From assembly GCA_963575745.1 (NCBI GenBank), contig CAUYUJ010000336.1:1061247-1125246 (forward strand): DNA of 64,000 nucleotides, written 5' to 3'. The position numbers were made by a program, and so were the translations under genes. Positions 8,143-24,142 of this stretch are shown here, piece after piece. The stretch comes from Prorocentrum cordatum (taxonomy: Eukaryota > Sar > Dinophyceae > Prorocentrales > Prorocentraceae). Within the stretch, counting starts at the first letter, position 1, and every line of letters begins with the position of its first letter. The notes under the pieces were generated by a model. That model made no database searches, was not told the DNA's origin, and saw only the letters and a program-made list of their open reading frames with translations.

Positions 8143-8410
8143 GTCGAAAGTGAGCCTGGTAACTCAAATAGCATCCGATTCCATGATAGACATCGGATGG
8201 CAAATAGCGTCCATCGCTCTGCTGTGAAGGTACAGTATGAGGGGTGGACGGATAAGAGAGGATAAGATCGATGTAATGATCTTTCCAACACATAGCGAAC
8301 ACTCGCGGTGTCCGGGCAAATAGGGCGCGCGTGCCTTGAGCCAAAGGCAACGGCGCGCGCGAGCTATGCTCCCGATACTATAACATCTCCCAAAGACCTT
8401 CCCTTAAAGT
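8142..8410 (-). repeat. 3' LTR of the copia element (269 bp)
   Basis: It matches 23869-24137 over its full 269 bp with 7 substitutions and no indels. In element sense it starts ACTTTAAGGG and ends TTTCGACT, so the usual TG...CA ends are absent. It contains a strong potential hairpin (GCGCGCG arms around TGCCTT/AAGGCA) and, at 8335-8353, a DinoSL-like relic. The TGTTATAG that resembles a classic copia LTR start lies about 25 bases inside. Confidence 0.92.
8335..8353 (-). other. DinoSL-like relic in the 3' LTR
   Basis: The minus strand reads CCGTTGCCTTTGGCTCAAG. Against the DinoSL this is one substitution and a 2-base deletion, with the last 11 bases exact. Confidence 0.6.
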
Positions 8411-8776
8411 CGGGAGGGGAGGAGACGGAGAGCATAGTCGCACGCAACGGTCGCGCGCACGACTGTTTGCAAAAAGGAAAACAGTGCGTACAGTCTGGCC
8501 TAACACCAGACTGCAAGGCGAGTTTCCTCGCAAAGCATTTCACGCAAATACAAGACCGCCCCTTCAAACAATGAGGGGCTATCGGCTCAGTTAGAGGTAA
8601 GCCAGACAGGCCATACCTCACCAAGCAAATGTGTATTAAGGCGAAGAGCCTGAGTTGTACGAAGCCGGCTCGTTGCCAGGCGTGAAATATAAGGCTCGTT
8701 TCCGAGCAACCAGAGGGGCGCCTTTATAGTGGGCGCCCGTGCTGGCAAATTGGACCGCGAGGGCAACAAGGACAGA
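8411..8776 (-). other. 3' untranslated region of the copia element
   Basis: This lies between the pol stop and the 3' LTR. It contains two perfect GNRA hairpins (8518-8531, 8694-8707), so the hairpins are not limited to coding sequence. Directly next to the LTR the sense strand is pyrimidine-rich (CTCCGTCTCCTCCCCTCCCG). A normal sense-strand polypurine tract is therefore missing from the expected place. Confidence 0.6.
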
Positions 8777-11700
8777 CTAAAATTGATTAGACTTAGGTTT
8801 GTCTCTGTCCTCGGGACCCCGAAAGGGAACAAATTGCTTCACGTCATACTTAAATGACTGAGTGCCTGACATCACTTCCAGAAGCAGCTCCCGATCGATG
8901 CTTCCCTTTGTATGCCCATCTGCGGTCATATCCCTAGTATCACACCATTGCACATTATGTACTATACCTATATCCATGAGCTCACGTATCCAGCTGATAT
9001 GTCCAAGCAGAGTCCGTTCTGTAGGTATCTTGAGATCCCTGCTTGATAAAGATTTGTAGACGGACTCGGCGTCTATGGTAAGAGAGACTTTGATAGCTAG
9101 GCCTCCAACTTCACGCATGTCTCGTAGTTGTCGTGGAGTCAAAGCTCCTGCCTTAAGCTCGTGGAGAGTAATGAGCGTAGGGTAACACTCATCAAGGTTA
9201 TGTGCAGCTGCAAGTGCCTCCGCAGCATAACTGGACCTCACCTGTAATCGGTGTGATTTGCATAGTCCGTCACAGAGGTGAACGACGGACTTGCCTTGAG
9301 GCGAGTTTCCTCGCCGTAGTACATTGGCCCCGCGTATGCCGTAGCCCTTGGTCTCGTCATCCTCCTCCCCGGTAAGCTTCCGATACCCCGAATCGCTATG
9401 GATGTCAACTTCATTCGTCGGCTTCATCCGAGGGAAGGTGATACGTTTCGGGCTGCTGATCAGCTTTCGCGTCACAGCATTCAGACGTCTGACATGCAGA
9501 TTGGTGGGCTCTTGAATTTTCTGAAGAGAGACCGCGTGTACCATGAGCCAGATTTGGGTAAGAAGGGCAGAGGCGAGGGCTCCTCGCAGCCTGACGAACA
9601 TGTCGGTAATGAGTTTCGTGGCTTTGGCATCGGCCGCCGCTCCTGTAAGTTCTGGGTGTGTGATAGGACGTAGTTGTTTGATATACTCGTCCTGGTCCAT
9701 GATCACATCTCCTTGATCATTCTTAGTGTAGCGAACGGCGCAGTTCGTATATGTGTGCTTGTTGAGCTTGCATTTGCCAAACACCTTTTCGACGCGTTGT
9801 ACATAGTCGTCTATATTTTTCTCTAGACCTGTCATGTTAATATCATCGACATGTTTTGCCGTCAGAAGGTCTTGGCTGAATTCAAATTCAGGATCGTAGC
9901 TGGTCGGTGTAAGTCCTATAGCTCGTGTGGTCGTACGAAGTTTGAGAGAGAACGCTCTTGGAGCGTCCTTTGTACCCGTTCCTGGTTTGAGGCATCTAAG
10001 ACAGTGTCGACTTTCGTCGTAGGATGAGAAGCCGGGTAATGTACGAAGTACCTGAGCACTTCCTGGTGGAAGAGTAAAGCAAACCATGCGAGTTTCCTCG
10101 CCGGTGGCATGGGCAAGTTCCTCATAGGTCAAACCCTTGAGGAACGCCTTATCGATATCCATGGATGCTAAGATCCACTCTGGATGGCATGCCGCTTCAC
10201 TTGCCAGGAGTCGTTGGGACTGCCTTCGGGCGGTTCCCGAGAATGTTTCCACATCAAAAGCCTCAGTATCCATAAATCCACGAAGGACCAGTCTGAGACG
10301 AATGGTTTTAACGTTCTCGGTACCCATCTTTACAAACTTCCACTTGTATACATATCTGGATGTCATGATGTTGGAAGCCTTGGATAAATCATACATCTCA
10401 AAGCATCGATTATCAATCCAGATTTTGAGCTCAGTATATAAAGCTTCACTAACCTCCTTTGGATGTGCTGCTATGTCGGCTTTGGTCAGTAGATCATCTT
10501 CTTTGACAACCACAGCACGTTTAGCAGCAGAGGATACATATACTCTCATCGTTGCGACCATATCAGTATCGAGCTGTGCAAGTTGAGTCTGATCCAACAC
10601 TATTTGTGACATTTCCGATGTAAAACATAATTCTACGTAAGGACCATATTCATCACTGTCAAGAGAGTAGCTCTCGTCGGTTGTGGTTGAACAAAGAGAG
10701 ACTAGACAGGATTCACGTGATTTCGGCTCGTCTCCGAGCAGATCTGATGATATAATATCATCTTCGTCCACAAATGCTGAAACCAAAACACATTGGTCGG
10801 GCAGCATAATTGTTGGGACGCAATAAAGATAATCATCAGTAATCGTCGTAGGATGAAGGTCCATACGTAGCTCGTCGTACCACTCTTCCAGCATCATAGC
10901 TTCGATATTGTGTTCCTCATTTTCCTCATAGATTGTCGACAGACGGCCTTCACTCGGCGATGAAGCATCTGGTGTGTCTGGAGAAGGCCTGTTTCCAGGC
11001 GACTCGTGTTCCCCAGACGTGTTGCTTGAATGCTGATATTTAACCAAATCGTCGTGAAATCCTAAGGAAAGGACACGCGAAGTCAAGCATTGAATAAGTC
11101 TGGAGTGAGTGCTACCAGTGATCTGAGAAATGTTTAAGCCGGTGCCCACACATTCGTAGTAGTGGAACGCCGGGCTGATGTCGTTGTCATAGTGGATCAG
11201 CGTAGACCCGGTGGCGTACTTTACTGCAAGTAAGCTTGACACACTCTTAGCCAGTCGAACTGCTACTACATGTTCTACTCGGAAGTAATTTCGTACGAGA
11301 TACTGTAGTGCTAAGTGTACGCGCGGGTGGAACTTGCTGTCGTCTGACAGATTAAGGTTTCCCTTGTAATCGGAGATGCAACCGAAAACTCTGGCAGGTT
11401 TCCCTGCGCTGAGGTGTGCCACATAAGCAAGGACGGTTTGCATGGCCATATTATCCATGCCAAGTTCCCGTGTGAGGAGACATTCGATGTTCAGTGTGTG
11501 ACGAGCATCAGGATACATCACAATTACCTCACGAGATCCTGCCTTGACAACAATATGTCCTCTTTCAGGCACATTTCGGATTACCGGGAATGGGCCATTC
11601 CAGCCTCCATGGTCGTCCTTGGTGGCAGTAGGTCGGTGGTAATCGACCAAATCCCCTGATGAGTAGAGGCGAGCACCATCAGGAGTCGTCTTAGCCCTAA

Positions 11701-12895
11701 GAGCCCGATTTGTCTTGGCCACAGCAGTAGCCTGAGTTATAGCTTCTAGGCTGACTTCCCTTACACGACGTTCTCGTTCGTGTCCTGAAGTCTCGGGTCC
11801 CTTGGGAAAGTCAAGGGTATCGAGATCAGGGAGGAAAGAGGGCTGACGTCCTGTGTGTGCCTGATATGGCGATACTCCGTTATAAAACGTAAACGCATTA
11901 GTAACGAAGATGCCTTCCGCCAATACTCTAGTGAATACAACAAGGATGTTGTGTCTATTCAATCTTTCCTCAATCATGTGGAGGACGCCTCTGAGAATGC
12001 CGCTTCGTGACTCAATTGAAGTAGCGCGTTGGCCAGGTGCTCGGATGCGAAGTTCCGTGCCCTTATTGGCCATCATGGTTTTAGCGGCATCGTTATTCAG
12101 GGCGCCTTCTCCGTCTGAGTATAAAACTTTGAAGGGTCCGTGATAGGCAATCCAGCAGTAGTGGTAGGCGTCGATGATAGCGTCACGTTCTCTGTCGGAA
12201 ATTTCTAGGCCTGCTGCCAGGCGAATACAACGATCCATAATATGAAATATGGTCCGTTTCTTGTAAAACATGAGGTCCATTTCCCCTTCATCGAGCCAGT
12301 TACCAGGAAGGCTCACCGATGGTAGTGTTGAGTTTCCTGGACGTTCCCATGCTCTGCATTCCCGACAGGTATCGCAAACTTCCTTGATCATGTTCAGTCG
12401 AACGTTATCAAGCCCCACCTTTTCGAGGATTAGCCTCATCTTTGGCTCCTTCGCATGATGCCATCGCAGATGCAGTTTTCGGAGTTCCTTTTTCACGACA
12501 TGAGGTTCGTGACTACGGAGACTCTGTAGACTGTGTTGGATGTCGAATCTCGTCCAGTCGGGTAGTCGTGGAGCCCCAGAGCCGGTGGAGGCAAGAGGGT
12601 TCCTTGTAGCTCTCCGTAGTTGGTCCCCTGTGTTAACTGCGTCTGGAGGTGGTGGTACGCCTTGTAGACGGCCGCGGCGGGCCGCTACCTGTGGCACTTC
12701 GCTAGAAGACGCAGAAGGCGTGTTTCCACGCTCGGGGGCGTCTCGTAGCATGTCGTAGCTGCTGGCACCAGATGTCGGATCGACGTTGCCGAAGGATCGT
12801 GGTCGCGGTGGCCTGGCGTGTGCGCCTTGACGGCCACCTGAAGCTGAAGCTTGGCCCTCACCAGGTTTAGGTAAGGGTTTCCACCAAGCTGGCAC
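8777..12895 (-). CDS. pol: Copia integrase, reverse transcriptase and RNase H
   Basis: 1372 codons, entered by a -1 shift within a 210-base overlap. Integrase: zinc-binding H142, H146, C174, C177; catalytic Asp207 (EMDLMF), Asp261 (LYSDGEG) and Glu295 (TSIESRSG); then an SH3-like GDLVDYH...GWNGPFPV. About 320 residues of unrecognised sequence separate it from RT. RT (RVT_2 type): MDIDKAFLKG gives the first Asp, and KHVDDIN at 1014-1020 is the YVDD box with Tyr replaced by His. RNase H: IHSDSGY, YAAEALAA, TIDAESV and TADGHTKG supply the four acidic positions. All catalytic residues are present. It ends at 8777, 366 bp before the 3' LTR. Confidence 0.92.
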   Translation of the reverse strand: MPAWWKPLPKPGEGQASASGGRQGAHARPPRPRSFGNVDPTSGASSYDMLRDAPERGNTPSASSSEVPQVAARRGRLQGVPPPPDAVNTGDQLRRATRNPLASTGSGAPRLPDWTRFDIQHSLQSLRSHEPHVVKKELRKLHLRWHHAKEPKMRLILEKVGLDNVRLNMIKEVCDTCRECRAWERPGNSTLPSVSLPGNWLDEGEMDLMFYKKRTIFHIMDRCIRLAAGLEISDRERDAIIDAYHYCWIAYHGPFKVLYSDGEGALNNDAAKTMMANKGTELRIRAPGQRATSIESRSGILRGVLHMIEERLNRHNILVVFTRVLAEGIFVTNAFTFYNGVSPYQAHTGRQPSFLPDLDTLDFPKGPETSGHERERRVREVSLEAITQATAVAKTNRALRAKTTPDGARLYSSGDLVDYHRPTATKDDHGGWNGPFPVIRNVPERGHIVVKAGSREVIVMYPDARHTLNIECLLTRELGMDNMAMQTVLAYVAHLSAGKPARVFGCISDYKGNLNLSDDSKFHPRVHLALQYLVRNYFRVEHVVAVRLAKSVSSLLAVKYATGSTLIHYDNDISPAFHYYECVGTGLNISQITGSTHSRLIQCLTSRVLSLGFHDDLVKYQHSSNTSGEHESPGNRPSPDTPDASSPSEGRLSTIYEENEEHNIEAMMLEEWYDELRMDLHPTTITDDYLYCVPTIMLPDQCVLVSAFVDEDDIISSDLLGDEPKSRESCLVSLCSTTTDESYSLDSDEYGPYVELCFTSEMSQIVLDQTQLAQLDTDMVATMRVYVSSAAKRAVVVKEDDLLTKADIAAHPKEVSEALYTELKIWIDNRCFEMYDLSKASNIMTSRYVYKWKFVKMGTENVKTIRLRLVLRGFMDTEAFDVETFSGTARRQSQRLLASEAACHPEWILASMDIDKAFLKGLTYEELAHATGEETRMVCFTLPPGSAQVLRTLPGFSSYDESRHCLRCLKPGTGTKDAPRAFSLKLRTTTRAIGLTPTSYDPEFEFSQDLLTAKHVDDINMTGLEKNIDDYVQRVEKVFGKCKLNKHTYTNCAVRYTKNDQGDVIMDQDEYIKQLRPITHPELTGAAADAKATKLITDMFVRLRGALASALLTQIWLMVHAVSLQKIQEPTNLHVRRLNAVTRKLISSPKRITFPRMKPTNEVDIHSDSGYRKLTGEEDDETKGYGIRGANVLRRGNSPQGKSVVHLCDGLCKSHRLQVRSSYAAEALAAAHNLDECYPTLITLHELKAGALTPRQLRDMREVGGLAIKVSLTIDAESVYKSLSSRDLKIPTERTLLGHISWIRELMDIGIVHNVQWCDTRDMTADGHTKGSIDRELLLEVMSGTQSFKYDVKQFVPFRGPEDRDKPKSNQF

Positions 12896-15240
12896 GGTTT
12901 TGCCTTCGGGGTCGTGGTCGTCTGGTAGTTTAAATGGTTCAGCAAAACGACATTTACAGGTTCGGTATCGAGGTGGTTCTTAACACCCTTGCTTCTCGTA
13001 AGATCCCTTTGACATGCTGGACATGGCCAATATACAGAGATGGAATCATGATATTTACACTGCGTAGGGTCTCTGTTATGGCTAGGACTGTCCTTTCGGA
13101 CGTTGTCGATGCATGCCGGGCAAGTAGCCACCTTTGGGATGATACGATCACCGATGCGTCTCATACCTTCGCCTGGTTCAGCTTGATCGGGAAGGTCTGT
13201 AGGATAAGCATGTGCGGTACTTATAGGCGCGTTTCCGCGCGTGGTGTCAATGGCTTTCGCCAGATATACAGCTTCCACGAAGGCAGACTGCAGTCGTCGG
13301 GTGTATTTTTGTGCCAGTGAAAGCTCGGTATTGCACGGTTGTGCGTGCACATGCTGACCGTTACACTTGAGTCGCTCAAAGGGTTTAAGAATTGTCTCGT
13401 CGTTGCTGGTGATATTTGTCGGCTTCTTAATATAGTCACCAGTCGTGTCTTTAAGTCCCGTAGCGCATTGGTCAATGCGTACGGTTGTAACTTGTGCTCG
13501 GTTGGCAAGCTTCTTCCATGGAGAAATATCATCTACCCATGTTCCTGTAGGTTGTTCACGTATAAACCACCTCCGAGCGTCATCTTGGGTTACAGCAATT
13601 TTACCACAATAAGTTATGTGTGGTAAGTCTTCTTTATGGTGCTGTTCCCAAGTGTTGTAGTTGACTTTGTAGTTGTAGTAGGATGGTGGTCCTGTGGTGC
13701 GGCAGCTGGGTTGCAGCATGGCAACTCGTACGTAGCATATAGCAAAGTAATGATCTATAACCTGCTGCACCGAGGGGTCTCCCAGGTCGACATATGTAGT
13801 CTTGTCCAGGTTGCCGCCTGAGGAAAGTCCCCTTGAGAAGGCAAGCTCTGAGATGCCACCCTCACCGCCACAAAGCTCCAACATATCCACGCAGTTGTTA
13901 TGACCATAGCATAGTGTAGCAACTATGCTGTATATGTTAGCGTGTGTGTCGGGCATAGATGTGGGGAGGGTAAGGAACAGGTCATCGTCCTCGTCGGAGC
14001 TTATCAGCTCAACAGGGACGTCAGTACTCCAGGTTGCCATAAGATCCTGTCCGAGTCCTGACAAGTCGTCGCCGCAATCATCGTTTCCGTCTTCAACGTG
14101 CTTTTTAATGCGGCGAGGCTTGATGCCTGCTTCCTTTTCGGCTTTGAGCCTCTCCTTCTGCTTTATACGCGACTCAGTGGGAAAAGCTTGCTCGTCTTGT
14201 TCGTCGGTCTGTGTACTCATTGTCGTGGTTGAATGGGTACATGCGTCAATCGCCAGAGTCGGGAGGGGGAGAGAACAGTCATCTATGATGACGCGTCGAT
14301 GTTTCTGTGGTGATTGAGTCGGCTCGTTTCCGAGCAAGACCGGTTCCTCGGGTTGCCAATACAACCGAGTACTGATGTTGGCAACCCCTGCGGGTAATGG
14401 TGCATGCCAATCATATCCTGTTGGTTGATCGGTAACTGAGATATCCTGAATAACCGCATTGGTATCCAGGTTGATTGTTACACGTCGGATGACTTCAGAC
14501 CATTTTGGTCCTCCCTTATTAGTCGTCACGTAGTGACGGGTGTTATGGTCTGTACGTGTATACGTATTTAAGTATACAGGCACGTTTCCGTGCGTGGTGG
14601 TGCTCCCCAGGATGTTGTCGTTCAAATGACGGATGAGTGTAGTACGTGTCTGAGCTCGCCATTCAGCATGCCGTACTGTATGGCCGTACCAATCCAACAC
14701 ATGTTGTGGCATTGCCTGCTTACAGGTACATGCCCACAGCTTCGAGCTAATTGGTATTGAAGATGCGACCTGCATATACGTACCGCTTGGTGTACTGTCT
14801 TGCATATTGAACCGAATACCGAAATGACACAAACGCATCCGTATTACTGACAAGTTTAGATCTTCCAGGGTGTCACGTACTGGAGACAACTTCCAAACAT
14901 ATCCTGGGGGACCAAATATTATGATCTTCATGCGGAGTTTCTTGGCTTTTATCAACAGGTTCTGGATACGTGACCAATGTGGGGCCACTCTCTTTCCTGG
15001 AGTTCTTACGTACCAGTCACTCGGAGTACTGATCCATATGAGAGTGTAATCTCCACTGATCACCGCACCTAGGTAGCTTGTGCCCACGCTTGTCATAAGT
15101 TTGTTGTGGGAAATACGATCACAAATATAACCTCGTGTGCGAAGGTCGGCACAGGCCTCCCTCGTATCTTCAATGACAAAAGCCCTCTTACTAAGGCAGG
15201 TTACCCCGCTGTCCTTGTTACCCCCCGGCTTTTCAGCCAA
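12685..15240 (-). CDS. Copia polyprotein: unknown domain, methyltransferase-like domain, zinc-binding segment
   Basis: 851 codons, in the same frame as the Tpt1-RING-protease ORF and 13 codons past its TGA. Residues 18-200 form an alpha/beta-looking domain (YTLIWISTPSDWYV, MKIIIFGPPGYVWKL) that I cannot name. A charged linker follows, with a basic coiled stretch (RIKQKERLKAEKEAGIK). Residues 450-640 hold VDMLELCGGEGGISE, resembling the SAM-binding motif I of methyltransferases, then LQPSCRTTGPPSYYNY, in the place of a catalytic Pro-Cys motif, then REQPTGTWVD. Near 680-730 are paired CPAC motifs with His residues, likely a zinc site. The methyltransferase assignment rests on these motifs only; an inactive relative is possible. 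Confidence 0.6.
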   Translation of the reverse strand: MAEKPGGNKDSGVTCLSKRAFVIEDTREACADLRTRGYICDRISHNKLMTSVGTSYLGAVISGDYTLIWISTPSDWYVRTPGKRVAPHWSRIQNLLIKAKKLRMKIIIFGPPGYVWKLSPVRDTLEDLNLSVIRMRLCHFGIRFNMQDSTPSGTYMQVASSIPISSKLWACTCKQAMPQHVLDWYGHTVRHAEWRAQTRTTLIRHLNDNILGSTTTHGNVPVYLNTYTRTDHNTRHYVTTNKGGPKWSEVIRRVTINLDTNAVIQDISVTDQPTGYDWHAPLPAGVANISTRLYWQPEEPVLLGNEPTQSPQKHRRVIIDDCSLPLPTLAIDACTHSTTTMSTQTDEQDEQAFPTESRIKQKERLKAEKEAGIKPRRIKKHVEDGNDDCGDDLSGLGQDLMATWSTDVPVELISSDEDDDLFLTLPTSMPDTHANIYSIVATLCYGHNNCVDMLELCGGEGGISELAFSRGLSSGGNLDKTTYVDLGDPSVQQVIDHYFAICYVRVAMLQPSCRTTGPPSYYNYKVNYNTWEQHHKEDLPHITYCGKIAVTQDDARRWFIREQPTGTWVDDISPWKKLANRAQVTTVRIDQCATGLKDTTGDYIKKPTNITSNDETILKPFERLKCNGQHVHAQPCNTELSLAQKYTRRLQSAFVEAVYLAKAIDTTRGNAPISTAHAYPTDLPDQAEPGEGMRRIGDRIIPKVATCPACIDNVRKDSPSHNRDPTQCKYHDSISVYWPCPACQRDLTRSKGVKNHLDTEPVNVVLLNHLNYQTTTTPKAKPCQLGGNPYLNLVRAKLQLQVAVKAHTPGHRDHDPSATSIRHLVPAATTCYETPPSVETRLLRLLAKCHR

Positions 15241-15279
15241 CAGGCAAGACGACGAGGGGGCGACGTCGCCCTGCCATCT

Positions 15280-18200
15280 TCAAGATGAAGAAGATGTGCC
15301 TGCAATATCTGCCAACATCTGGGCTTCCCTCAGATGCTGGAGCTCAGCACTGCAGCGCGCCGTGGCCTCAGAGGCGGATTGCTCCGCAAATGCTGTCAGC
15401 ATCGATGGATTATCCATCAGCTGTTTCAGCGCGCCTTTGGACCTAGCGTCGCTGACCGTATGCAATTCACGATTAGTGTATCCCATCACTATCTTACGGC
15501 GGGACTGTACAGCGTCCATGGGTACACTTCCACCATGCTGGGCCAGTGTCCTGGCAACAAAACAATCGAACGTCTCAAGATCGTCGATGTTGTCGCCTCG
15601 CATGGTGGCCTTGGCGAGCGTCTCCATCAACCCCTGGGGCAGGTTTCCCTGCAATTGCTTGCGCTCCTGCGCCGGGGTCGGCTCGCCTGTCAGCACTGTC
15701 TGGAAGGACGTGCTGCTTGAGCTCGAGGCGGGTTGCCCCGCAGCTCCAAAACAATCACACCTGATCGACAGATGCCCTGACGGCAACTTTGTCGTCGGCA
15801 TGATTTTGGAGCCTTCTGGGAGCTCCATTTTGACCTGCCCCTTACCAGGGAATATCAGCTTCTCCTGGCCTCGTTCAAGCACGATGATCGTGCGTTTGTC
15901 CTGCATACTATCGAGGCCTAGGATGGCTGGCAGGTCCTTGCCACAGCCTGACACAATGTTCGTCTTGTATGAATCGAGTTGGGCCGACCCCTGGTACTCG
16001 CAGGCAATACTGAATGTGCCTACGGTATCCGCTGGGGCCGACCCTTCTCCCACTCCGTTGATATTCAAACGAGAGCGGGGCTCGAACGTACAAGTACGGC
16101 CATGTGCCTCGGCAGCCTGGACGAACTTACGGCTCGTGTTCTCGCCCATGATGTTGATCTTCGAACCGACGTCGATGAGTATGGAATTTCCACCATCATC
16201 CAAGAACGTCTTACTCGGCTGCTTGATGTGCACAGTTTCTGAAGTGTCGGCTGTGTCGGTAGGCGGGTTTCCCCGCGGCACAGTCGTGCTCCCTGGCGGG
16301 TTACCCCGCATGACACTGGCATGCGACTCGCTCTCGGCCATGCGTGCCAGGTCGATGTACTGGAAGTACGACACGTGCTGGGCGTGATCGCCACGCTCCT
16401 CCCGCCAGTTGGCATACTCATCACGTATGCTCTTATACTGCTCGCGGGTCGTGCGCCTTATCAACGTCAGGTACGAGTGAAGGGCGATGTCTTGCAGCCC
16501 CTCGTTCGTGATGTGATCCCGGTACTGCAGCCACTCCTCGAACTCCTCGTTCGTCGCTGTGATGTTGACGGCCCTGGCTGCTGTTGCTGCTGACGCCACT
16601 GAGGATTCTGATAAGTCTAGCGACGGACTATCAGTTTCAGGATTGTTGGCATCCAGCATAAATGTTGTGTGCGTATTATCCATCTGATTCTGGAAATGTC
16701 GTGCACGCAATTCACGCAGCTGATCAGGGTCCAGTGACATCTCAGCCTCGCCTCCACTCTGGGGAGACATCTGAGGAGTATCATGCAGGTTTCCCTGCTG
16801 AGGCGCCGTCATCGGGATAAGCTGATCAAAATATCCCGTTTCCATAGGCGGCCTTACCTCTTCAGGCAGGTATCCCTGCTGTTGTGGCGGAGCTGTCTGC
16901 ATAGCTAGCATCCTAGACGTCATCTCCTCCACCATGCTCCTCAGCTCCCGCAGCTCTCTCGCCGATTGCTCAGGAGTCTGACTAAAGGAGCCGGTCCATG
17001 GGAAGGATGATGCTATGATGCCAGGTGCTCGGCAGATAGCACATGGTGGCTGCTGGGGATCTCCCTCACGCTGGTTTGTAACGTGGCCCACCACATTTGA
17101 ATTCCAGCATCCTTCGTGGAACAAGTGGTTGCACCTCAGGCGGTAGACACTGTCCCTGGGCTGAAATTCTTCGAGGCATACCGCACAGGTATCTTCCATC
17201 CCAGTAAAGACCTCTACGTCTGCTGCCCTGGGATATACCCGCCGCTGCCTCTCCAGTACCGTCTCGGAGGGCATGAAGGCTGATGGGGGTGTCCCCGTTG
17301 GATTCAGCACCTCCTGCACTTCGACATTTGGCATGGAAGTGGTAGGAGTCACGGCGGGCGAGTTCCCTCGCAAAGGTGAGCCCCTGTTTCTCACCACATC
17401 AAGTGCAGCTGCACGTGACTGATCCCGTACACTTTGCACCGCCTGCCTTCTCCTGAAGCATGCCTGCTGAGTGTGGTGCGTCTGCCTGATGTAGTCAGGC
17501 ACGCCCCTACTGCCAGACGATATTGAATGGGCAGTGGGCTGGACAACCACCTCTGGTGATGTCGGTGAAGGCATGAAGGCCATGTGCGGGTACATGGAAT
17601 GGTCACTGCAGCGCACATTAGTGAGGTTATGCATCTGATCCGCCAATTCACGAACAAATTTGTTCGGAACCCTTGACCCATCAGGGTATAATGGCGGGTT
17701 CATCTGCGCTGGTGGTGGCCTCTGGCCCTGAGACATGCTCGGATGGGCATTAAACGCCGGGATGAAGGCTCGTTGCCGAGCAGGGTCCCGTGGGTTGGGA
17801 CCCTCAGGTTCCCAGGACCAGGCTGGCCTCCACCTCTGCCCACTTGGGTGAGGCAGATTATGGCTCTGCACCTGCTGCACCGCGGCCGCCACTCTTGAAC
17901 GATAGTCGTCAGGTACACTAGCCCTATGGTGGCTTGGTGTGCCAGGCAGGTTTCCCTGCTGACTCGTTGGCGTGCCGGGCGGCATCATGTTGAGGAGGGC
18001 TGTGCTGTGCTCAGCCCTAGCCGCAGCTATCCTCTCCATGAGAGTGCCGTTTGTGGCAGGGCGGACAGGTGTCCCGAACGGGGATTGTGCAGGTGGTGCG
18101 CCCAATGGAGTCATGCCCCTTGGAGTGTGCATGCTCTGAGTAGGGCTTCCATGCATTGGCTCAAACCGAGAAGGTCCGCTTGTAGACAGGTTTCCCTGCA

Positions 18201-19461
18201 TGGCCTGACGATTTCTCGCTGCCATAGCGGACATTGCCCCCTGGCCTGCGGCCCAGGGGTCCTGCTGGTATAACCTGTCCGCCAGCTGTTCTACCTGGTC
18301 AGGGTTCAGCGCGGCTGCGATCTGATCCAGGTCCGAGGTACTGATGGCCTGCCAAGACACGGCACTAGGCCCTTGGCTTGGGGCACGGCTTGGAGCCGCG
18401 CTCCCGGCCTCACTCTCGGTGATCATGAAGATCCGATGGATCTCAGGCTGGTTTCCCAGCTTGGCGGGGCTATAGTGGTCCCCAACTTCCCTTTGGAGGT
18501 AGACCATGGGGGGGTCGACGCCCTCTTGGTCTCGGGACCACTGATATTTGACGCTGGCAGTGCCAACGTCAGCCCACCTGTCAGGGGCAGACATCATTGC
18601 GACAGAGACTCGAGCATGGCGGCTCCCCAGATACTCTGGATTACGCCAGTGCCTTCCCGTGGACAGGTCCTCTACATGAGAGATGTAATACGGTTCGATG
18701 ATGCCGTTATTTCCTTCGGACAAGAGGACTCCGTTATCGGACCAACAGAACTTCATACCATCTTGTATGGCCTTACGCCAATCTACGAAGATGACGATGT
18801 CTGAGTCTGGGTCCCACCCACTGTCCACGGCACGACGGCGAACTGTCGGCGCGAAATGAATGCGCGACCGGCCTGTCCATCTTTTCTTCGTGTTATGCTC
18901 AGGTCTACAAGACAGGCCGTGATACATAATCCCTTCGAAGGCGTGCCATCGAGTGCCATGCATAGCAACTTCGGGGCATGGGGCCGGTCTCCCGGCAGGT
19001 TGGTCGCACAGCACAATGTAGCTGTACAGCGACCATGGAGCTTTCAATGCCCATGAGTGCCCCTGAGAGGCGCGGATGAAGATAGCGGGCTCTCCAGAGT
19101 CCCGCATCAACACCTTGAACTGTAGGCGTTGTTTTTCTTCTCCGTCTGGTTCACGGACATGAACAACTTCCATCATGATGGCTGCTAGTTGGTCAACCGA
19201 GCGCCCATATAGCTGCTCGTTGATGACCTTGGCCTCGTCATACTTTGGATTATACCGAGCGTGTCTTGATTGACCTGTGTTCCACGGATAATGGTCAACG
19301 AGTTCCACTAGGTTAACCCAACCATCATGATCATCGAAGGATTCCAGGCCCCACACAGGATTGTGTGGTCTGTCTGGCGCATGTCTGCATATCCTGCTGA
19401 GAGCTTTACTCAGCTGTTTGAGAATGTCATTGATGTGGGAAGGATTCCAGCTTTCCTGCAT
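15280..19461 (-). CDS. Copia polyprotein: Tpt1/KptA RNA 2'-phosphotransferase, RING-H2 and aspartic protease
   Basis: 1393 codons. Residues 1-257 match the Tpt1/KptA family, NAD+-dependent enzymes that remove a 2'-phosphate from spliced RNA. Seen in order: SKALSRICRH (R26-H27), GLESFDDHDGW, RLQF, RASQGHS (R130, H135), MHGT (168-170), RSRIHFAP (R200, H202), DSGWDPDSDIVIFVD and DGMKFCWSDNGVLLSEG. All family signature blocks are present, including the Arg-His-Arg-Arg set. Residues 754-811 form a RING-H2 finger: CAVC, then C-N-H, LFHEGC, and CAIC. Near 1094 the protease core ILIDVGSKINIMG keeps Asp-X-Gly, followed by ILGLD about 80 residues later. Between them are disordered Pro/Gln-rich stretches with many GN motifs. 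The frame stops at TGA 15280 but is open again directly after it. Confidence 0.85.
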   Translation of the reverse strand: MQESWNPSHINDILKQLSKALSRICRHAPDRPHNPVWGLESFDDHDGWVNLVELVDHYPWNTGQSRHARYNPKYDEAKVINEQLYGRSVDQLAAIMMEVVHVREPDGEEKQRLQFKVLMRDSGEPAIFIRASQGHSWALKAPWSLYSYIVLCDQPAGRPAPCPEVAMHGTRWHAFEGIMYHGLSCRPEHNTKKRWTGRSRIHFAPTVRRRAVDSGWDPDSDIVIFVDWRKAIQDGMKFCWSDNGVLLSEGNNGIIEPYYISHVEDLSTGRHWRNPEYLGSRHARVSVAMMSAPDRWADVGTASVKYQWSRDQEGVDPPMVYLQREVGDHYSPAKLGNQPEIHRIFMITESEAGSAAPSRAPSQGPSAVSWQAISTSDLDQIAAALNPDQVEQLADRLYQQDPWAAGQGAMSAMAARNRQAMQGNLSTSGPSRFEPMHGSPTQSMHTPRGMTPLGAPPAQSPFGTPVRPATNGTLMERIAAARAEHSTALLNMMPPGTPTSQQGNLPGTPSHHRASVPDDYRSRVAAAVQQVQSHNLPHPSGQRWRPAWSWEPEGPNPRDPARQRAFIPAFNAHPSMSQGQRPPPAQMNPPLYPDGSRVPNKFVRELADQMHNLTNVRCSDHSMYPHMAFMPSPTSPEVVVQPTAHSISSGSRGVPDYIRQTHHTQQACFRRRQAVQSVRDQSRAAALDVVRNRGSPLRGNSPAVTPTTSMPNVEVQEVLNPTGTPPSAFMPSETVLERQRRVYPRAADVEVFTGMEDTCAVCLEEFQPRDSVYRLRCNHLFHEGCWNSNVVGHVTNQREGDPQQPPCAICRAPGIIASSFPWTGSFSQTPEQSARELRELRSMVEEMTSRMLAMQTAPPQQQGYLPEEVRPPMETGYFDQLIPMTAPQQGNLHDTPQMSPQSGGEAEMSLDPDQLRELRARHFQNQMDNTHTTFMLDANNPETDSPSLDLSESSVASAATAARAVNITATNEEFEEWLQYRDHITNEGLQDIALHSYLTLIRRTTREQYKSIRDEYANWREERGDHAQHVSYFQYIDLARMAESESHASVMRGNPPGSTTVPRGNPPTDTADTSETVHIKQPSKTFLDDGGNSILIDVGSKINIMGENTSRKFVQAAEAHGRTCTFEPRSRLNINGVGEGSAPADTVGTFSIACEYQGSAQLDSYKTNIVSGCGKDLPAILGLDSMQDKRTIIVLERGQEKLIFPGKGQVKMELPEGSKIMPTTKLPSGHLSIRCDCFGAAGQPASSSSSTSFQTVLTGEPTPAQERKQLQGNLPQGLMETLAKATMRGDNIDDLETFDCFVARTLAQHGGSVPMDAVQSRRKIVMGYTNRELHTVSDARSKGALKQLMDNPSMLTAFAEQSASEATARCSAELQHLREAQMLADIAGTSSSS

Positions 19462-20045
19462 TCCTTCATGAATGTCTCATCCACCGAGCGTATCGGTGGG
19501 ATCTTCCGAAGCGCAAGTCTATCCCTGATCACCTTCGGAGTCCCACTAGTGAAGGACGTGTCACCTGGGTGGCGCAGCTGAACCACTGGCGGGTTTCCCC
19601 GCATCGGAACCTCTGTTGCTGAAGAGGCTGCAGCTCCTGAAGAGGAGGAAGCTGCGGCGGCAGCGCCTGGCGGGATTCCCCGCGGAGATGCGCGACTGGC
19701 GCTGCCCCTGATCTTCGGCACCCAGGTACCCCTCGACATAGCACCTTCATCGGACCTCCTGGAACGGGCCGCCACAGGCGAAGCTGGCGCAGGTGCATGC
19801 CCACTGCGCTCGAAAGCTGCCGCCTTTTTCGCAATGGAGCTGCTGCGACTAGGCGGGCGTCTTCGTTCCTCCATAGGGTCCTGAGGTTGCTGCTTGGGCT
19901 CGGACGCTTGTGTAGGAGTTGCGCCAATCGGCGGCCTCGGAGTTTCAGTTCGAGGCACCTCCATCTGCACGTCTGGCCCAGGGTCCTGACTGAGGGCTCG
20001 TCTTCGGTTTCGGCACCGAGGACGGCTTAGGTGTCGGGGGTTCAC
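19410..20045 (-). CDS. Copia polyprotein segment, Ala/Ser/Pro-rich linker
   Basis: This 211-codon frame bridges the previous and next segments, overlapping each by about 50-100 bases. It is rich in Pro, Arg and Ala (PRPPIGATPTQASEPKQQP) with an Ala/Ser run, and carries two hairpin-encoded motifs (RGIPPG and RGNPPV). Its final residues overlap the start of the Tpt1 domain frame. The paired -1 and +1 shifts on either side are what two opposite indels would produce, so an intact relative may have one continuous frame here. Confidence 0.55.
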   Translation of the reverse strand: MNPRHLSRPRCRNRRRALSQDPGPDVQMEVPRTETPRPPIGATPTQASEPKQQPQDPMEERRRPPSRSSSIAKKAAAFERSGHAPAPASPVAARSRRSDEGAMSRGTWVPKIRGSASRASPRGIPPGAAAAASSSSGAAASSATEVPMRGNPPVVQLRHPGDTSFTSGTPKVIRDRLALRKIPPIRSVDETFMKECRKAGILPTSMTFSNS

Positions 20046-21513
20046 TCTTAGCCTTCGAAGTTAGTGGGAGTGGGGGCTTCGTAGCCCCCTTCATGTAGAT
20101 CTTACTAGAATCCTCCAACATCTTGCGAGTTGCCTCGCGAGTGCGTTCTTCTGCTGTCCGCATACGCTCCTCGTCCTCCGCCACACGTTGAGCCTTTTTC
20201 TCGTCCTTGATTGTCGGTTCTGGTTGTTGGGACTGGCTAGAGACGCCAGACGAGTTTCCTCGCATACTAGGAAGACTAAAGAGCGCGTCTTTTTCTTCCT
20301 GGGTCGTGGCTACCAGTCCCCTTGGAACAGGAGTAGGCTTCTCTTCTTCTTTCGGATCCAGGTGGCTCAAGATCCCGAGACGACGATTCACTTCTGCGAT
20401 CCCGTCCTGTGTCATCGGGATAAGTTGCGGATGGCCCTCTTTATGAGGGGTTTTGCCCCTGTTGGGGCTCAGGCCTTCGTTGTTGCCAACGGGGCATCCT
20501 GGCCTGTGGTTCTGGAACGGCTCGGAACAAGGTCCGCATGCTGCGTGAGGCCTATACTGCTTGCGCGCCGCGATAATGTCTCGCAGCTGAGTCCGCGCTT
20601 CTTGAATTTCAGGGCGGCGGATATTTGTTGCAAGCTGATAGCCTCCGCGGATGGCCTTGCCATCACTGTCCCTATGGGCAGGGTTGCCCTTGCCGAAGGC
20701 CGAGTATTCCCCTTTTCGGCGTCTTTGGTCGTTATATGGAAGTAGCTGGCCTCCTCTCCTGAGAGCGTGTTCTTTTGGGCCAGCCTGCCTCCACTCACGA
20801 GGAAGTCGAGCCTGTGGATGTGGCTCTTCTCTGACGCGCGTATGGGAACGAGACCTCCTGGTGTTCTCATCAGAAGAAGCTGCCGAAGCAGCAGGAGCGG
20901 GACCCGGTGGAGGTGCCTGAGGAGGCTCCTGTGCGATCCCAGATGGATCGTCCGATGGAGGCAGGTCTCCCTGCTGGATGGAGCTCGGCGCAAATGGCGC
21001 TTGTGCCGATGGTGATGACGATTCAGACTCGTCAGGATCGAAGTCAACCTCTTCCTCACCATTCACGTCCATCATGAGGATGGTGACGTCATCCTCATCT
21101 AACCCGCAACCATCGCCTTCTACCTCTTCTGATGTCGAACTACCGATGATGATGGCCATTGGCGTATCTGGTACAGGCAGGTTTCCCTGCATAGCCGGCG
21201 TCTGTGTGTCGCTCGGCTGCCCCGGGGTAGGAGGCGCCGTTGTCGGCTCGGGCTCGTTGCCGAGCACAGGCTGCCCGGCAATGTTGCGCATGGCCGTATG
21301 GTTTGGCCACATTCCCACCGCCTGGAGACCCCATCCTGGCGGAGGAAGATCATGACCGCGCATAGCAATAGCCATTTCTAGAGCATTACGCCATCTACCA
21401 CGGGAGTATATCAAGTGTCTCTGCACGTCCTGAGGATGCGCGCTGTCAATGAGAGTCAGAACTGCCAACGACAGCTCTGAGCTACCACAAGCGTCAGTAT
21501 CCTGCATTATCAT
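19945..21513 (-). CDS. Copia polyprotein segment, proline- and charge-rich
   Basis: It is 522 codons in the same frame as 21541-21918. The first 100 residues look folded (SSELSLAVLTLIDSAHPQDV, HLIYSRGRWRNALEMAI). The rest is disordered: acidic (VDFDPDESESSSPS), basic (RRSRSHTRVREEPHPQAR), then a Lys/Glu coiled-coil-like run (KKAQRVAEDEERMRTAEERT). Five or more [X]-G-N-[X]-P motifs occur, each encoded over a GNRA hairpin or a close variant. No enzymatic motif seen. It ends at 19945, about 100 bases inside the next frame. Confidence 0.6.
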   Translation of the reverse strand: MIMQDTDACGSSELSLAVLTLIDSAHPQDVQRHLIYSRGRWRNALEMAIAMRGHDLPPPGWGLQAVGMWPNHTAMRNIAGQPVLGNEPEPTTAPPTPGQPSDTQTPAMQGNLPVPDTPMAIIIGSSTSEEVEGDGCGLDEDDVTILMMDVNGEEEVDFDPDESESSSPSAQAPFAPSSIQQGDLPPSDDPSGIAQEPPQAPPPGPAPAASAASSDENTRRSRSHTRVREEPHPQARLPREWRQAGPKEHALRRGGQLLPYNDQRRRKGEYSAFGKGNPAHRDSDGKAIRGGYQLATNIRRPEIQEARTQLRDIIAARKQYRPHAACGPCSEPFQNHRPGCPVGNNEGLSPNRGKTPHKEGHPQLIPMTQDGIAEVNRRLGILSHLDPKEEEKPTPVPRGLVATTQEEKDALFSLPSMRGNSSGVSSQSQQPEPTIKDEKKAQRVAEDEERMRTAEERTREATRKMLEDSSKIYMKGATKPPLPLTSKAKSEPPTPKPSSVPKPKTSPQSGPWARRADGGASN

Positions 21514-21540
21514 AATGTCAGCTTCGATATGTTCTTGACT

Positions 21541-21918
21541 CTAAGGATAACCACTAATAAGTATCTCATGCATCCTCATGAGGGTCTGCAAAAGGGTGCG
21601 TGGTCCATATTCGCCTGGAGCAAGCGAACCAGGAGGTATAAACGGAGTATCTGGTTCGCCTGCAACGAAGGCCTGAACAAATGCCTGAGACTCCATTTCG
21701 ATTAAGTCTTCAGCGGTCTGGGGATATTCTCCCATCAAAGAAGGCCTGTTTCCAAGCGGGATTTCGGGCGGAGGTTCGAGGTGTCGTTGAACCTCGGAAG
21801 GCGAAGCCTCTATAGTGGTGTCCTCGTCGCTGCTCTCGTAGGCCATGATGTTGCCTGGGTTCCCGAACATCCAGTCGAAGAAGGATAAAGGGTAGTTTCC
21901 CAGCGCCCCGTGTTCCAC
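21541..21918 (-). CDS. Copia polyprotein segment, acidic linker
   Basis: This 125-codon frame is shifted -1 relative to the zinc-knuckle frame. It starts at an ATG inside the overlap and ends at TAG 21541-21543. It is acidic and proline-rich (YESSDEDTTIEASPSEV, EYPQTAEDLIEMESQ). Past the TAG the frame continues open into the next segment with only nine codons before its first ATG, so the stop looks like a single interruption of one longer reading frame. No domain recognised. Confidence 0.55.
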   Translation of the reverse strand: MEHGALGNYPLSFFDWMFGNPGNIMAYESSDEDTTIEASPSEVQRHLEPPPEIPLGNRPSLMGEYPQTAEDLIEMESQAFVQAFVAGEPDTPFIPPGSLAPGEYGPRTLLQTLMRMHEILISGYP

Positions 21919-22733
21919 GGGAGTGAGCTCGTTGTTCCCTCAACGAACCTGCGAACGTACTCGAGGTAGTACGCGTACAATCCATGACCATACGCCTCGA
22001 GCTCGTCGACGTTGTCCATGCAGCTGACCCAAGTGAAAAATATCTGCTCCATAGCCTCAAAGTCCTGGAGGCTTAGATACTCAATGAATGGTTCACTTGA
22101 GCCAAAATGGACTTCGGTCGACCTGCCCTTTCCATTTCCCTTCACTGGACAATCTCGCACAAGGTGATCGGAACTACCACATTCATGGCATTTAAGAACC
22201 TGGCCGTCTCTACCTCGCGGGTTCCCCCGCCTACCTTTGCCTTTTCCTGAGGTCTCTCCGCGGCCTTTGCCGCGGCCCTTTCCCCAAAAGAATATCTCAT
22301 CATGTTGTTCATCTGAGAGCCTCTGGAGAAATGCCGCGATGCCTCGTCCGTTCAACCTCCGACGACCTCGCTTACCTTTACCTTTTCCCTTAAAACTTCT
22401 CCGTATCCTCCTTTTAACACGACGCACTGGTTTTCGTGTGAACCTCCTCCACCTTCGTTTAGCCTGTTGTAGTAACCAGAACAAATGTTCAGCACGCTGA
22501 TTGTCGTTATCCATATTCATGATATCTGACCAATCTAGAGCTTCAACACCATCTGATGATATAGTGTCTGTATCGGTGCCGGAGTCGAAGTCCTCGTCTC
22601 CCCAGTAGGTGGATGCACCGTCGGTTAGGGGGTTTGATTCCCCCCATAAGGAGCGGTGTGGTTGCGGTTCTCTAGAAGGAGGGCTGGTTGCCCAGCTTGG
22701 TTGTGATCGATCCCCTGCTAATAAAGCAGTGGA
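21810..22733 (-). CDS. Continuation of gag: acidic and basic linkers and a CCHC zinc knuckle
   Basis: This is in the same frame as the upstream gag and separated from it only by the TAA at 22734. It begins with a Ser/Pro/Trp-rich linker, then an acidic stretch (YWGDEDFDSGTDTDT), then a very basic block (RRFTRKPVRRVKRRIRRSFK) fitted for RNA binding. The knuckle CHECGSSDHLVRDC (C-X2-C-X4-H-X4-C) lies near 22165-22205 and is typical of nucleocapsid. Just after it, the DNA at 22096-22118 matches the DinoSL. The frame ends at 21810, overlapping the next frame by about 110 bases. Translation would need stop readthrough and a frame change, or this copy is broken. Confidence 0.7.
   Translation of the reverse strand, partial: STALLAGDRSQPSWATSPPSREPQPHRSLWGESNPLTDGASTYWGDEDFDSGTDTDTISSDGVEALDWSDIMNMDNDNQRAEHLFWLLQQAKRRWRRFTRKPVRRVKRRIRRSFKGKGKGKRGRRRLNGRGIAAFLQRLSDEQHDEIFFWGKGRGKGRGETSGKGKGRRGNPRGRDGQVLKCHECGSSDHLVRDCPVKGNGKGRSTEVHFGSSEPFIEYLSLQDFEAMEQIFFTWVSCMDNVDELEAYGHGLYAYYLEYVRRFVEGTTSSLPWNTGRWETTLYPSSTGCSGTQATSWPTRAATRTPL
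22096..22118 (-). other. DinoSL relic inside copia coding sequence
   Basis: The 15 bases CCATTTTGGCTCAAG (22110-22096) match the 3' part of the DinoSL exactly. The bases before them, ACCGAAGT, match its 5' part with one substitution and one inserted base. It falls just after the zinc knuckle and is translated in frame. Confidence 0.6.
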
Positions 22734-24020
22734 TTATCCTGGGTCATCGGCCCATATGCTTGAGGGCCCGTTTCCAGGCTGGGCTTCAGTAGTCAAGGTA
22801 GTGTAGAAATTTCCACTACCAGATCCCCTTCCCCTTCCAAACACAGATCCTATGTTACCAGGAGACCGTTCGGATAGGTGGCCTATCGAACGCATCCTCT
22901 CCAGCAACTCATCATACTGTTGTTGTGTTCGGGGCATTTGGTGATTGAGTGGCTGTAAGAGTTGCATGGCTCGCTGGTTGCCGACGCCTAAGGCGCGGAA
23001 TAGGATAGTGGTTAGCAGTTGGAAGTTGGGAAGGTCGAATCCCACCGACTGTGCCTCAAGTCGGGCCATTTCGAATCGGGTAAGGGTGACATCGATTCGT
23101 TCCCCGTGAGGCACGTGGAAGTCGATGAGTTGTGTGCCGGAAGTGAGCTGTCGCTCATCTTCCAGGCGTTCGAACTTCATGCTTAGGAGGAACATGATGT
23201 AGGTCACTGGGTCTGTGTGGACCCCATCGATGTCAGCACCATAGTTTATAATGTCAGGCGGTACCCTCATGGCGAGTGTCCTCGCTAGGCCACCTAGGCC
23301 GCGTTGTATTGCGGCCGCTTGGGCCTGTGGCGTCATACGTCCGCTTGTAACGTTGAGCCATGCGTTGACCTCGTAGATGTACTCACGAAAAGGTACATTA
23401 CCTTGAGGGTCCCAATATGGGCCATGTGTTTGCCCATCGGTGCTGTTTTCTCCACGACGCATGTGTCCGATTGCTGCCCCCAGCGCGAACCATATAATAG
23501 CGAAAACGACTAGCCCGAGAATGTGTAGAGAAGGACGGTTATGATGCGCGTTGTCGCGCTGGGGTAGCGCCTTGTCGAGTCTTCGAGGCGCTCTGTCTGG
23601 CGGGTCTCCCCGCCCCTGCTTCAAGTATTGCGCTGTTAGCTCGTTGCCGAGCGGTTGGTGGTAACGCAATGATGAAGCGTATATGGTACCAGTCTGGTCG
23701 TCTAGACGTCGTACCTCTCGTGTTGCTTCTTGCTCTTGGATAGATCCTCGTAAACGTACAGGGAGTGGTGGCGCAGGGTGGTAGGTGGTCACGAAGATCG
23801 TGCCGAAGAATACGAGGCTAAGAAAAGCAAGAGCTGACCACACGAGAGTGCGGCCAGCTCCGCTACCAAGTCGAAAGTGAGCCTGGTAACTCAAATAACA
23901 TCCGATTCCATGATAGACATCGGATGGCAAATAGCGTCCATCGCTTTGCTGTGAAGGTACAGTATGAGGGGTGGACGGATAAGATAGGATAAGATCGATG
24001 TAATGACCTTTCCAGCACAT
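22734..24020 (-). CDS. gag: Copia gag-like protein with two membrane segments
   Basis: The frame is open from within the 5' LTR. The first ATG is at 24020 and gives 428 codons, up to the TAA at 22734-22736. About the first 50 residues are encoded by the LTR. Two hydrophobic stretches follow: TLVWSALAFLSLVFFGTIFV and LGLVVFAIIWFALGAAI. They are separated by a charged linker and look like membrane segments, which is unusual for gag. The rest (RIDVTLTRFEMARLEAQSVG, LPNFQLLTTILFRALGV) has the helical, leucine-rich look of a capsid region. It ends in a Gly/Arg/Ser-rich tail (FGRGRGSGSGNF). Beyond the TAA the same frame stays open without a break for 308 more codons. It could instead be a gag plus a captured membrane protein. 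Confidence 0.7.
   Translation of the reverse strand: MCWKGHYIDLILSYPSTPHTVPSQQSDGRYLPSDVYHGIGCYLSYQAHFRLGSGAGRTLVWSALAFLSLVFFGTIFVTTYHPAPPLPVRLRGSIQEQEATREVRRLDDQTGTIYASSLRYHQPLGNELTAQYLKQGRGDPPDRAPRRLDKALPQRDNAHHNRPSLHILGLVVFAIIWFALGAAIGHMRRGENSTDGQTHGPYWDPQGNVPFREYIYEVNAWLNVTSGRMTPQAQAAAIQRGLGGLARTLAMRVPPDIINYGADIDGVHTDPVTYIMFLLSMKFERLEDERQLTSGTQLIDFHVPHGERIDVTLTRFEMARLEAQSVGFDLPNFQLLTTILFRALGVGNQRAMQLLQPLNHQMPRTQQQYDELLERMRSIGHLSERSPGNIGSVFGRGRGSGSGNFYTTLTTEAQPGNGPSSIWADDPG
23854..23868 (-). promoter_or_regulatory. Primer binding site, initiator-tRNA-Met type
   Basis: In element sense TGGTAGCGGAGCTGG follows the 5' LTR with no gap. TGG pairs with a tRNA CCA end, and TAGCGGAG would pair with an acceptor strand ending CTCCGCTA. 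The implied acceptor begins with A1 paired to U72, a hallmark of eukaryotic initiator tRNA-Met, the usual copia primer. The match to this organism's own tRNA is inferred. Confidence 0.75.
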
Positions 24021-24137
24021 AGCGAACACTCGCGGTGTACGGGCAAATAGGGCGCGCGTGCCTTGAGCCAAAGGCAACGGCGCGCGCGAGCTATGCTCCC
24101 GATACTATAACATCTCCCAAAGACCTACCCTTAAAGT
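23869..24137 (-). repeat. 5' LTR of the copia element (269 bp)
   Basis: Partner of 8142-8410. It ends directly against the primer binding site. The first ATG of the gag frame (24020) lies inside this LTR, 40 bases downstream of the SL relic. Confidence 0.92.
24062..24080 (-). other. DinoSL-like relic in the 5' LTR
   Basis: Identical to 8335-8353. It lies 40 bases upstream of the first gag ATG (24020), where a trans-spliced leader would be expected on an mRNA. Confidence 0.6.
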
Positions 24138-24142
24138 GAGTG
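24138..24142. repeat. Target-site duplication, high-coordinate copy (GAGTG)
   Basis: Exact partner of 8137-8141. Collapsing the two copies restores an open frame across the site, which supports these boundaries independently. Confidence 0.88.

Follow-up and report, generated by a model that had tools for sequence, protein, structure and literature searches.

We analysed a 64,000-nucleotide stretch of the Prorocentrum cordatum genome (GenBank assembly GCA_963575745.1, contig CAUYUJ010000336.1, positions 1,061,247 to 1,125,246 of the forward strand), hereafter the window. It contains a copia long terminal repeat (LTR) retrotransposon, read on the minus strand, whose sense RNA carries a dispersed set of short hairpins of one class, each a 5-bp stem closed by a GNRA loop. 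The parts of the element are as follows.

8142..24137, minus (sense), copia LTR retrotransposon of 15,996 bases, recognised by its LTR pair, 5-bp target duplication and RVT_2 domain
24138..24142, unstranded, left target-site duplication, CACTC
23869..24137, minus, 5' LTR, 269 nt, 97% identical to the 3' LTR, no hairpin
23857..23868, minus, probable primer-binding site TGGTAGCGGAGC, directly 3' of the 5' LTR and read as such from its position
22737..24104, minus, Gag-type open frame (capsid region), assigned from position and composition, no Pfam match
21810..22520, minus, nucleocapsid-like segment with an arginine-rich stretch and a CCHC zinc knuckle (zf-CCHC, E 2.3e-4), candidate hairpin binder
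15280..19461, minus, KptA/Tpt1 RNA 2'-phosphotransferase and RING frame (Pfam domains)
12688..15279, minus, first part of the Pol frame
8777..12895, minus, integrase/reverse transcriptase (RT)/RNase H part of Pol, with RVT_2 at residues 830-1045 and putative integrase and RNase H
8142..8410, minus, 3' LTR, 269 nt, no hairpin
8137..8141, unstranded, right target-site duplication, CACTC

The two 269-nt LTRs, with CACTC on both flanks, are the paired repeats and short target duplication expected of a Ty1/copia element, and an RVT_2-type reverse transcriptase lies between them (PF07727, E 7.1e-9). A Pfam scan of the window frames gave no integrase match; one relative, P0024, bears a PF00665 annotation. 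The copy in the window contains in-frame stops and a frameshift relative to other copies, and other genome copies keep long open frames (2167-aa frames around the RT match). The nucleocapsid-like segment was matched in 8 of the loci fetched from the genome, with the CCHC knuckle intact in 7 and the arginine-rich stretch aligned in 5; in the remaining loci of those 8, this stretch is out of frame or outside coverage.

To count the hairpins we used a search pattern for the GCNNG-GNRA-CNNGC type, GCNNGGNRACNNGC, which the window matches 36 times, where 2.53 would be expected and the highest count among 100 shuffles was 7. Thirty-four of these, from 8518 to 23652 on the minus strand, have the sense orientation of the element and sit within its internal region; neither LTR holds any hairpin of the set. 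The other two matches (7023 and 47602) are not perfect hairpins. Among the 34, five Watson-Crick pairs form in 30, one pair is G-U in 3, and the hairpin at 8668 has a mismatch and a G-U. Counting every perfect 5-bp stem with a GNRA loop, we found 32 on the sense strand of the element, 0 on the antisense strand and a single one on each strand of the remaining 48 kb; for the perfect full GCNNG type the numbers were 30, 0 and, on either strand of the other 48 kb, 0. A covariance model built from the 34 had 41 matches at E<=2: 40 fall within the element, again on the minus strand, and a single one lies in the rest of the window. The hairpins occur at a density of about one per 400-500 nt, ten kinds of inner dinucleotide are present among the perfect ones, and a C stands directly 3' of the hairpin in 29/34. 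A sequence-only reading of this DNA had reported 32 scattered hairpins, ten inner dinucleotides each matched by its complement, and no such set in the other 48 kb. The last two statements agree with our counts, and the first was right in substance and slightly low (34 pattern matches; 40 covariance-model sites). The 34 sites are given below, followed by six that are imperfect or decayed in the window and better preserved in other copies; 3' UTR marks the 3' untranslated region.

8518..8531, minus, GCGAG GAAA CTCGC, 3' UTR, perfect in 6/7 fetched loci covering the site
8668..8681, minus, GCCTG GCAA CGAGC, imperfect, 3' UTR
8694..8707, minus, GCTCG GAAA CGAGC, 3' UTR, perfect in 7/7 fetched loci covering the site
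9301..9314, minus, GCGAG GAAA CTCGC
10088..10101, minus, GCGAG GAAA CTCGC
10726..10739, minus, GCTCG GAGA CGAGC
10987..11000, minus, GCCTG GAAA CAGGC
11394..11407, minus, GCAGG GAAA CCTGC
12718..12731, minus, GCGTG GAAA CACGC
13227..13240, minus, GCGCG GAAA CGCGC
14322..14335, minus, GCTCG GAAA CGAGC
14580..14593, minus, GCACG GAAA CGTGC
15196..15209, minus, GCGGG GTAA CCTGC, one G-U
15639..15652, minus, GCAGG GAAA CCTGC
15728..15741, minus, GCGGG GCAA CCCGC
16263..16276, minus, GCGGG GAAA CCCGC
16296..16309, minus, GCGGG GTAA CCCGC
16785..16798, minus, GCAGG GAAA CCTGC
17358..17371, minus, GCGAG GGAA CTCGC
17768..17781, minus, GCTCG GCAA CGAGC
17946..17959, minus, GCAGG GAAA CCTGC
18447..18460, minus, GCTGG GAAA CCAGC
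18983..18996, minus, GCCGG GAGA CCGGC
19589..19602, minus, GCGGG GAAA CCCGC
20125..20138, minus, GCGAG GCAA CTCGC
20961..20974, minus, GCAGG GAGA CCTGC
21177..21190, minus, GCAGG GAAA CCTGC
21252..21265, minus, GCTCG GCAA CGAGC
21744..21757, minus, GCTTG GAAA CAGGC, one G-U
22217..22230, minus, GCGGG GGAA CCCGC
22683..22696, minus, GCTGG GCAA CCAGC
22766..22779, minus, GCCTG GAAA CGGGC, one G-U
23600..23613, minus, GCGGG GAGA CCCGC, GC to AU change in copy L016
23639..23652, minus, GCTCG GCAA CGAGC
16866..16879, minus, loop GATA in the window, perfect GNRA hairpin in 6 fetched loci, AU/GC change between copies
18186..18199, minus, outer pair imperfect in the window, perfect in 3 fetched loci
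19670..19683, minus, loop GAAT in the window, GNRA in 9 fetched loci
20250..20263, minus, outer pair imperfect in the window, perfect in 8 fetched loci, AU/GC change between copies
21891..21904, minus, decayed in the window, perfect in 7 fetched loci, CG/GC change between copies
23546..23559, minus, loop ACAA in the window, GCAA in 3 fetched loci

Synonymous shuffles of the window copy (n=200) contained a mean of 0.885 perfect coding hairpins, with a maximum of 4, and codon-order shuffles (n=200) a mean of 0.01, with a maximum of 1; 27 were observed. When the 34 members (27 distinct rows) were treated as one family, standard pairs filled 99.3% of cells and the covariation score was 0.553, against 0.092 in shuffles. 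Moreover, comparing member with member revealed changes on both sides of a pair in 29 cells, a number reached by 0/500 shuffles. Together, the pattern excess, the shuffles and the covariation among members rule out a chance origin of the set. The predicted stem pairing in context had a median of 0.98 for the sense strand versus 0.55 for the antisense, and exceeded 0.5 at 29/34 sense sites. DNA-level palindromes were rejected as the main explanation, since the GNRA loop rule and the restriction to the sense strand favour RNA; among single changes in copies, new G-U pairs are in modest excess over new A-C (14 vs 6). No Rfam family scored above its gathering threshold between 8000 and 24300 of the window (0 matches), which rules out a known Rfam family as the identity of the hairpins.

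We then turned to other copies of the element. One hairpin 14-mer, searched for across the genome (4.13 Gb, 21,875 contigs), occurred 5,935 times, against 91 for its reversed control. Among the 100 matches listed, 92 fell in clusters resembling the window element and 8 were isolated; 7 of these 8 adjoin diverged relatives of the element and 1 (L036) does not. From the hairpin clusters we picked 20 stretches of 10 kb, whose alignable parts match the window element at 63-97% identity. In all 20, hairpins occur on one strand only, save a single imperfect opposite-strand pattern match in L023. The stretches are related to one another, and the substitution counts that follow are not independent. 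At four-fold degenerate stem sites we found 0/193 changes in the class of 90-98% identity, 0/156 at 80-90% and 2/134 below 80%; elsewhere in the frames the same classes had 922/8123, 1994/6412 and 2184/4892 (11%, 31% and 45%). The second loop base, the free N of GNRA, had changed in 10/73, 12/64 and 21/59, near the background rate in the first and third classes and below it in the second. This pattern of change is what one would expect of a GNRA loop.

We compared 40 sites at which the window copy or some other copy holds a hairpin. Loops were GNRA in 362/390 cells, and the pair cells were Watson-Crick in 1872/1950, G-U in 49, A-C in 13 and of other kinds in 16. Almost no variation is seen in the GNRA loop, in the G-C pair that closes it or in the outer G-C pairs; the inner pairs differ between sites yet nearly always pair. 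Among the 200 stem pair columns, 44 vary between copies. Five of these carry two Watson-Crick types and are thus compensated, including columns at 21891 (CG/GC) and at 20250 and 16866 (both AU/GC); the others have one-sided changes, some to G-U and some breaking the pair in a copy. Because silent stem sites are frozen, the loop N is freer and compensated columns occur, we conclude that the hairpins are structures in the sense RNA kept by purifying selection. Selection on RNA structure was also what the sequence-only reading had proposed, and conservation at synonymous sites, GNRA-type loop freedom and compensatory changes bear this out. Neither check that it had named spoke against the proposal: the codon-preserving shuffle fell far below the observed count (0.885 vs 27), and in related copies 5/44 variable columns were compensated, the rest being one-sided.

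The analysis covered 40 protein relatives. In one of them, P0001 (76% identical protein), peptides of the hairpin-like form xG[ND]yP are codon-complementary in 7/7 cases, with 0.06 expected. At one aligned site both sides have changed relative to the window (R/T to H/V, at the protein level), and at another (R/A to R/T) the two could pair only with a silent change invisible in protein letters. P0001 also has one extra hairpin-like peptide, and at one site a change of RGNSP to RGSSP seems to disrupt the loop. All 7 of its peptides have D where the window mostly has N, which, in protein letters only, implies GNGA rather than GNAA loops; such a coordinated shift suggests a trans-acting partner.

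Across further relatives, one aligned site has xG[ND]y in 17/25 rows (the other 8 were dropped), and 14/17 are complementary with 4.4 expected. The pairs there are L/E, R/T, R/S, H/V, P/R and T/G, and 6/9 distinct states are complementary (2.2 expected, P 0.0097). In the 25 proteins at 46-58% identity, G[ND] dipeptides are flanked by one pair in 95/311 cases (54.2 expected, maximum 75) and by two pairs in 34 (8.1 expected, maximum 18). The controls are raised as well, probably because the proteins are related: G[SAT] with 125/492 (90.7 expected, maximum 116), N-G with 43/88 (18.3 expected, maximum 32) and A[ND] at two pairs with 21 (8.3 expected, maximum 18). We therefore treat this protein-level covariation test as supportive only. 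At the DNA level, the diverged families L029, L030 and L001, at about 32-61% protein identity in Pol, have fewer hairpins. L029 and L030 carry one at the same linker as the window, with another stem and in another frame, and a second form, CCTTG-GNRA-CAAGG, occurs at one Pol site in L029 (2574, 2673, reverse strand) and in L001 and L030, and also in L031 and L033. The metagenomic relatives P0001, P0008, P0014 and P0015 show traces of the hairpins, read in protein letters only, and the viral contigs searched for related loci yielded one pattern match and no relative. As far as sampled, the hairpins appear nearly confined to this copia clade.

What the hairpins do is a more tentative matter. The most likely role, to which we would give a little under an even chance, is that of sites, distributed along the RNA, to which the nucleocapsid of the element's own Gag would bind. 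A stem-loop of one class recurs along the genomic RNA, as dispersed packaging signals require, and the set suggests a distributed recognition tag on the element RNA. The hairpins would form a repeated binding site for a protein that coats or counts the full-length RNA. Gag's nucleocapsid segment, with its arginine-rich stretch and CCHC knuckle, is the best candidate binder, by analogy with MS2-type signals and with lambda boxB and its N peptide. Many weak sites could let Gag recognise and condense a 16-kb genomic RNA and would exclude host RNA from packaging, as with the dispersed signals of MS2-like phages. A more specific proposal, which we hold to be possible and somewhat more doubtful, is that a clade of dinoflagellate copia elements bears a distributed identity code in its RNA, in which each lineage repeats its own hairpin 'dialect' many times along the genome, co-evolving with its own Gag and packaging its own RNA only. 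Such dialects would be GCNNG with mostly GNAA in the window, GD peptides implying GNGA in P0001, D-P..R-I stems in P0014 and P0015, and H..V stems in P0008. If true, this would be the first genome-wide packaging code in a retroelement known to us.

Several results weigh against a packaging role. At their native sites the hairpins had no predicted folding advantage over random placement within the element (P 0.75). The 34 window sites are spaced more evenly than random (coefficient of variation 0.655 vs 0.959, P 0.0066; merged P 0.0017), and with the 6 decayed sites added the effect shrinks (P 0.052, merged P 0.035); regular spacing is thus weak support. A 400-650 nt spacing class, picked with the data in view, carries no weight here. 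When all 16 G[ND] dipeptides of P0001 are taken, with or without P, 7 are complementary against 2.7 expected, with a maximum of 8 in 1000. In distant homologues (29-44% identity) the peptide signature is not enriched (23/120 vs 21.1 expected), and copia elements can therefore do without that signature. HIV-1 (human immunodeficiency virus 1) is described in PMC8472981 as having no packaging signals outside its 5' end. Finally, the data would fit a host RNA-binding protein just as well.

The last point is the strongest of the alternatives. Host protein or machinery acting in RNA export, localisation, stability, translation or escape from silencing may bind the hairpins, which we regard as unlikely enough to rank second. 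The silent-site and covariation data fit it equally, and so does the presence of hairpins in the 3' UTR, where 8694 and 8518 are kept in the proportions listed above. It sits poorly with the near restriction to the copia clade, where 7 of the 8 isolated 14-mers among the 100 listed adjoin diverged relatives, and with the different stems that different relatives seem to favour; an element-borne partner is the easier explanation of the latter. A direct role of the RNA itself, in which spaced, stable tetraloops prevent long-range misfolding, set where RT pauses or guide template switching with no specific protein, is a less probable alternative still. GNRA loops with a G-C closing pair are very stable, and the even spacing of the 34 window sites, weaker with 40, would suit it. 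The loop class, however, is kept in nearly all of the cells compared, which argues for recognition rather than stability alone, and no UUCG loop is among the loops tabulated at the 40 sites.

The sequence-only reading had named packaging signals and binding sites for Gag or RT as candidate roles, and any of these may apply. It had also raised a family of tiny mobile hairpins, inserted many times. Many members do share one consensus, L026 has a tandem-duplicated case, and DPGNRI-type peptides are repeated in P0015. Yet for the 275 perfect copy hairpins in alignments of >=500 columns to the window element, the opposite position holds a perfect hairpin in 231 cases, the site with 1-3 substitutions in 43 and a gap in 1. 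Hairpins vary at fixed positions by point change and do not move. The absences listed between copies are irregular deletions, with the one tandem duplication in L026, and none of those listed is a clean 14-15 nt hairpin insertion with flanking duplication. On these grounds we consider mobility very improbable. Least probable of all is protein-level selection on xGNyP peptides: 23/31 hairpins upstream of the last stop do read GN or GD in the presumed coding frame (two assignments rest on frames broken in the window copy), but 8 read in the other two frames, 3 lie in the 3' UTR, and the frozen silent stem sites between copies and the loss of hairpins in protein-keeping shuffles refute it as the sole cause.

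Other features of the element and the window are recorded here. The KptA/Tpt1-type domain (E 9.7e-24) and RING finger at 15280-19461 (minus) are odd cargo for an LTR retrotransposon; a homologue search with this frame returned a single Prorocentrum cordatum match that covers 6% of the query at 97% identity. At 15280-15282 (minus), a UGA stop stands between the Tpt1/RING frame and Pol, which share one reading frame; it is retained in 11/11 fetched loci covering it, which suggests stop readthrough or re-initiation ahead of Pol. Stretches of the first Pol part (12988-15237, minus) resemble cytosine-methyltransferase motifs, a reading that Pfam did not support at E<=1. Outside the element, a tandem array at 42603-43896 has a 160-base period, with one step of 320, marked by a GGGAG-GGGG-CTCCC hairpin in eight copies. 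At 60731-62086 and 61551-63935 (minus), a tyrosine recombinase (Phage_integrase, E 5.2e-9) lies beside a long frame; this frame has the look of a DIRS-type polymerase by eye only and has no Pfam match.

The proposed Gag-binding role has its closest parallel in MS2 and other small RNA viruses, in which dispersed stem-loops are proposed (PMC8472981) to act cooperatively with coat protein. The likeness lies in stem-loop sites spread through the genome. The difference is that those are RNA viruses, whereas here we have an LTR retrotransposon, a GNRA loop and free inner pairs, with putative binding. Moloney murine leukaemia virus (MoMLV) and HIV-1 have short hairpins bound by Gag or nucleocapsid, according to PMC8472981. 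Their psi stem-loops, such as MoMLV SL-C and SL-D, resemble ours as short hairpins, with Gag binding theirs and putative here; they are few and near the 5' end, in contrast to about 40 over 15 kb. Lambda boxB, a 5-bp stem with a GNRA-like loop bound by the arginine-rich N peptide, is alike in stem, loop and type of binder, which is a candidate only in our element; it differs in consisting of single hairpins in phage transcripts, acting in antitermination, with a pentaloop. Among dinoflagellates, Ty1/copia elements of the same superfamily are reported as heat-activated in Symbiodinium microadriaticum (PMC11453091), and the word 'hairpin' occurs 0 times in the main text of that paper. In the literature searched, which was available in part and largely leaves subscription papers and preprints outside its coverage, we found no report of dispersed hairpins in an LTR element. 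The hairpin set is thus real, strongly selected and without a precedent found for an LTR retrotransposon, and its function is putative. It would add a new functional layer to LTR retrotransposons, whose coding RNA is commonly assumed to be structurally free. Packaging by many dispersed hairpins has so far been worked out on small RNA viruses; some 40 near-identical hairpins, visible by eye, with many genome copies and traces in metagenomic relatives, offer a natural test bed for distributed RNA recognition.

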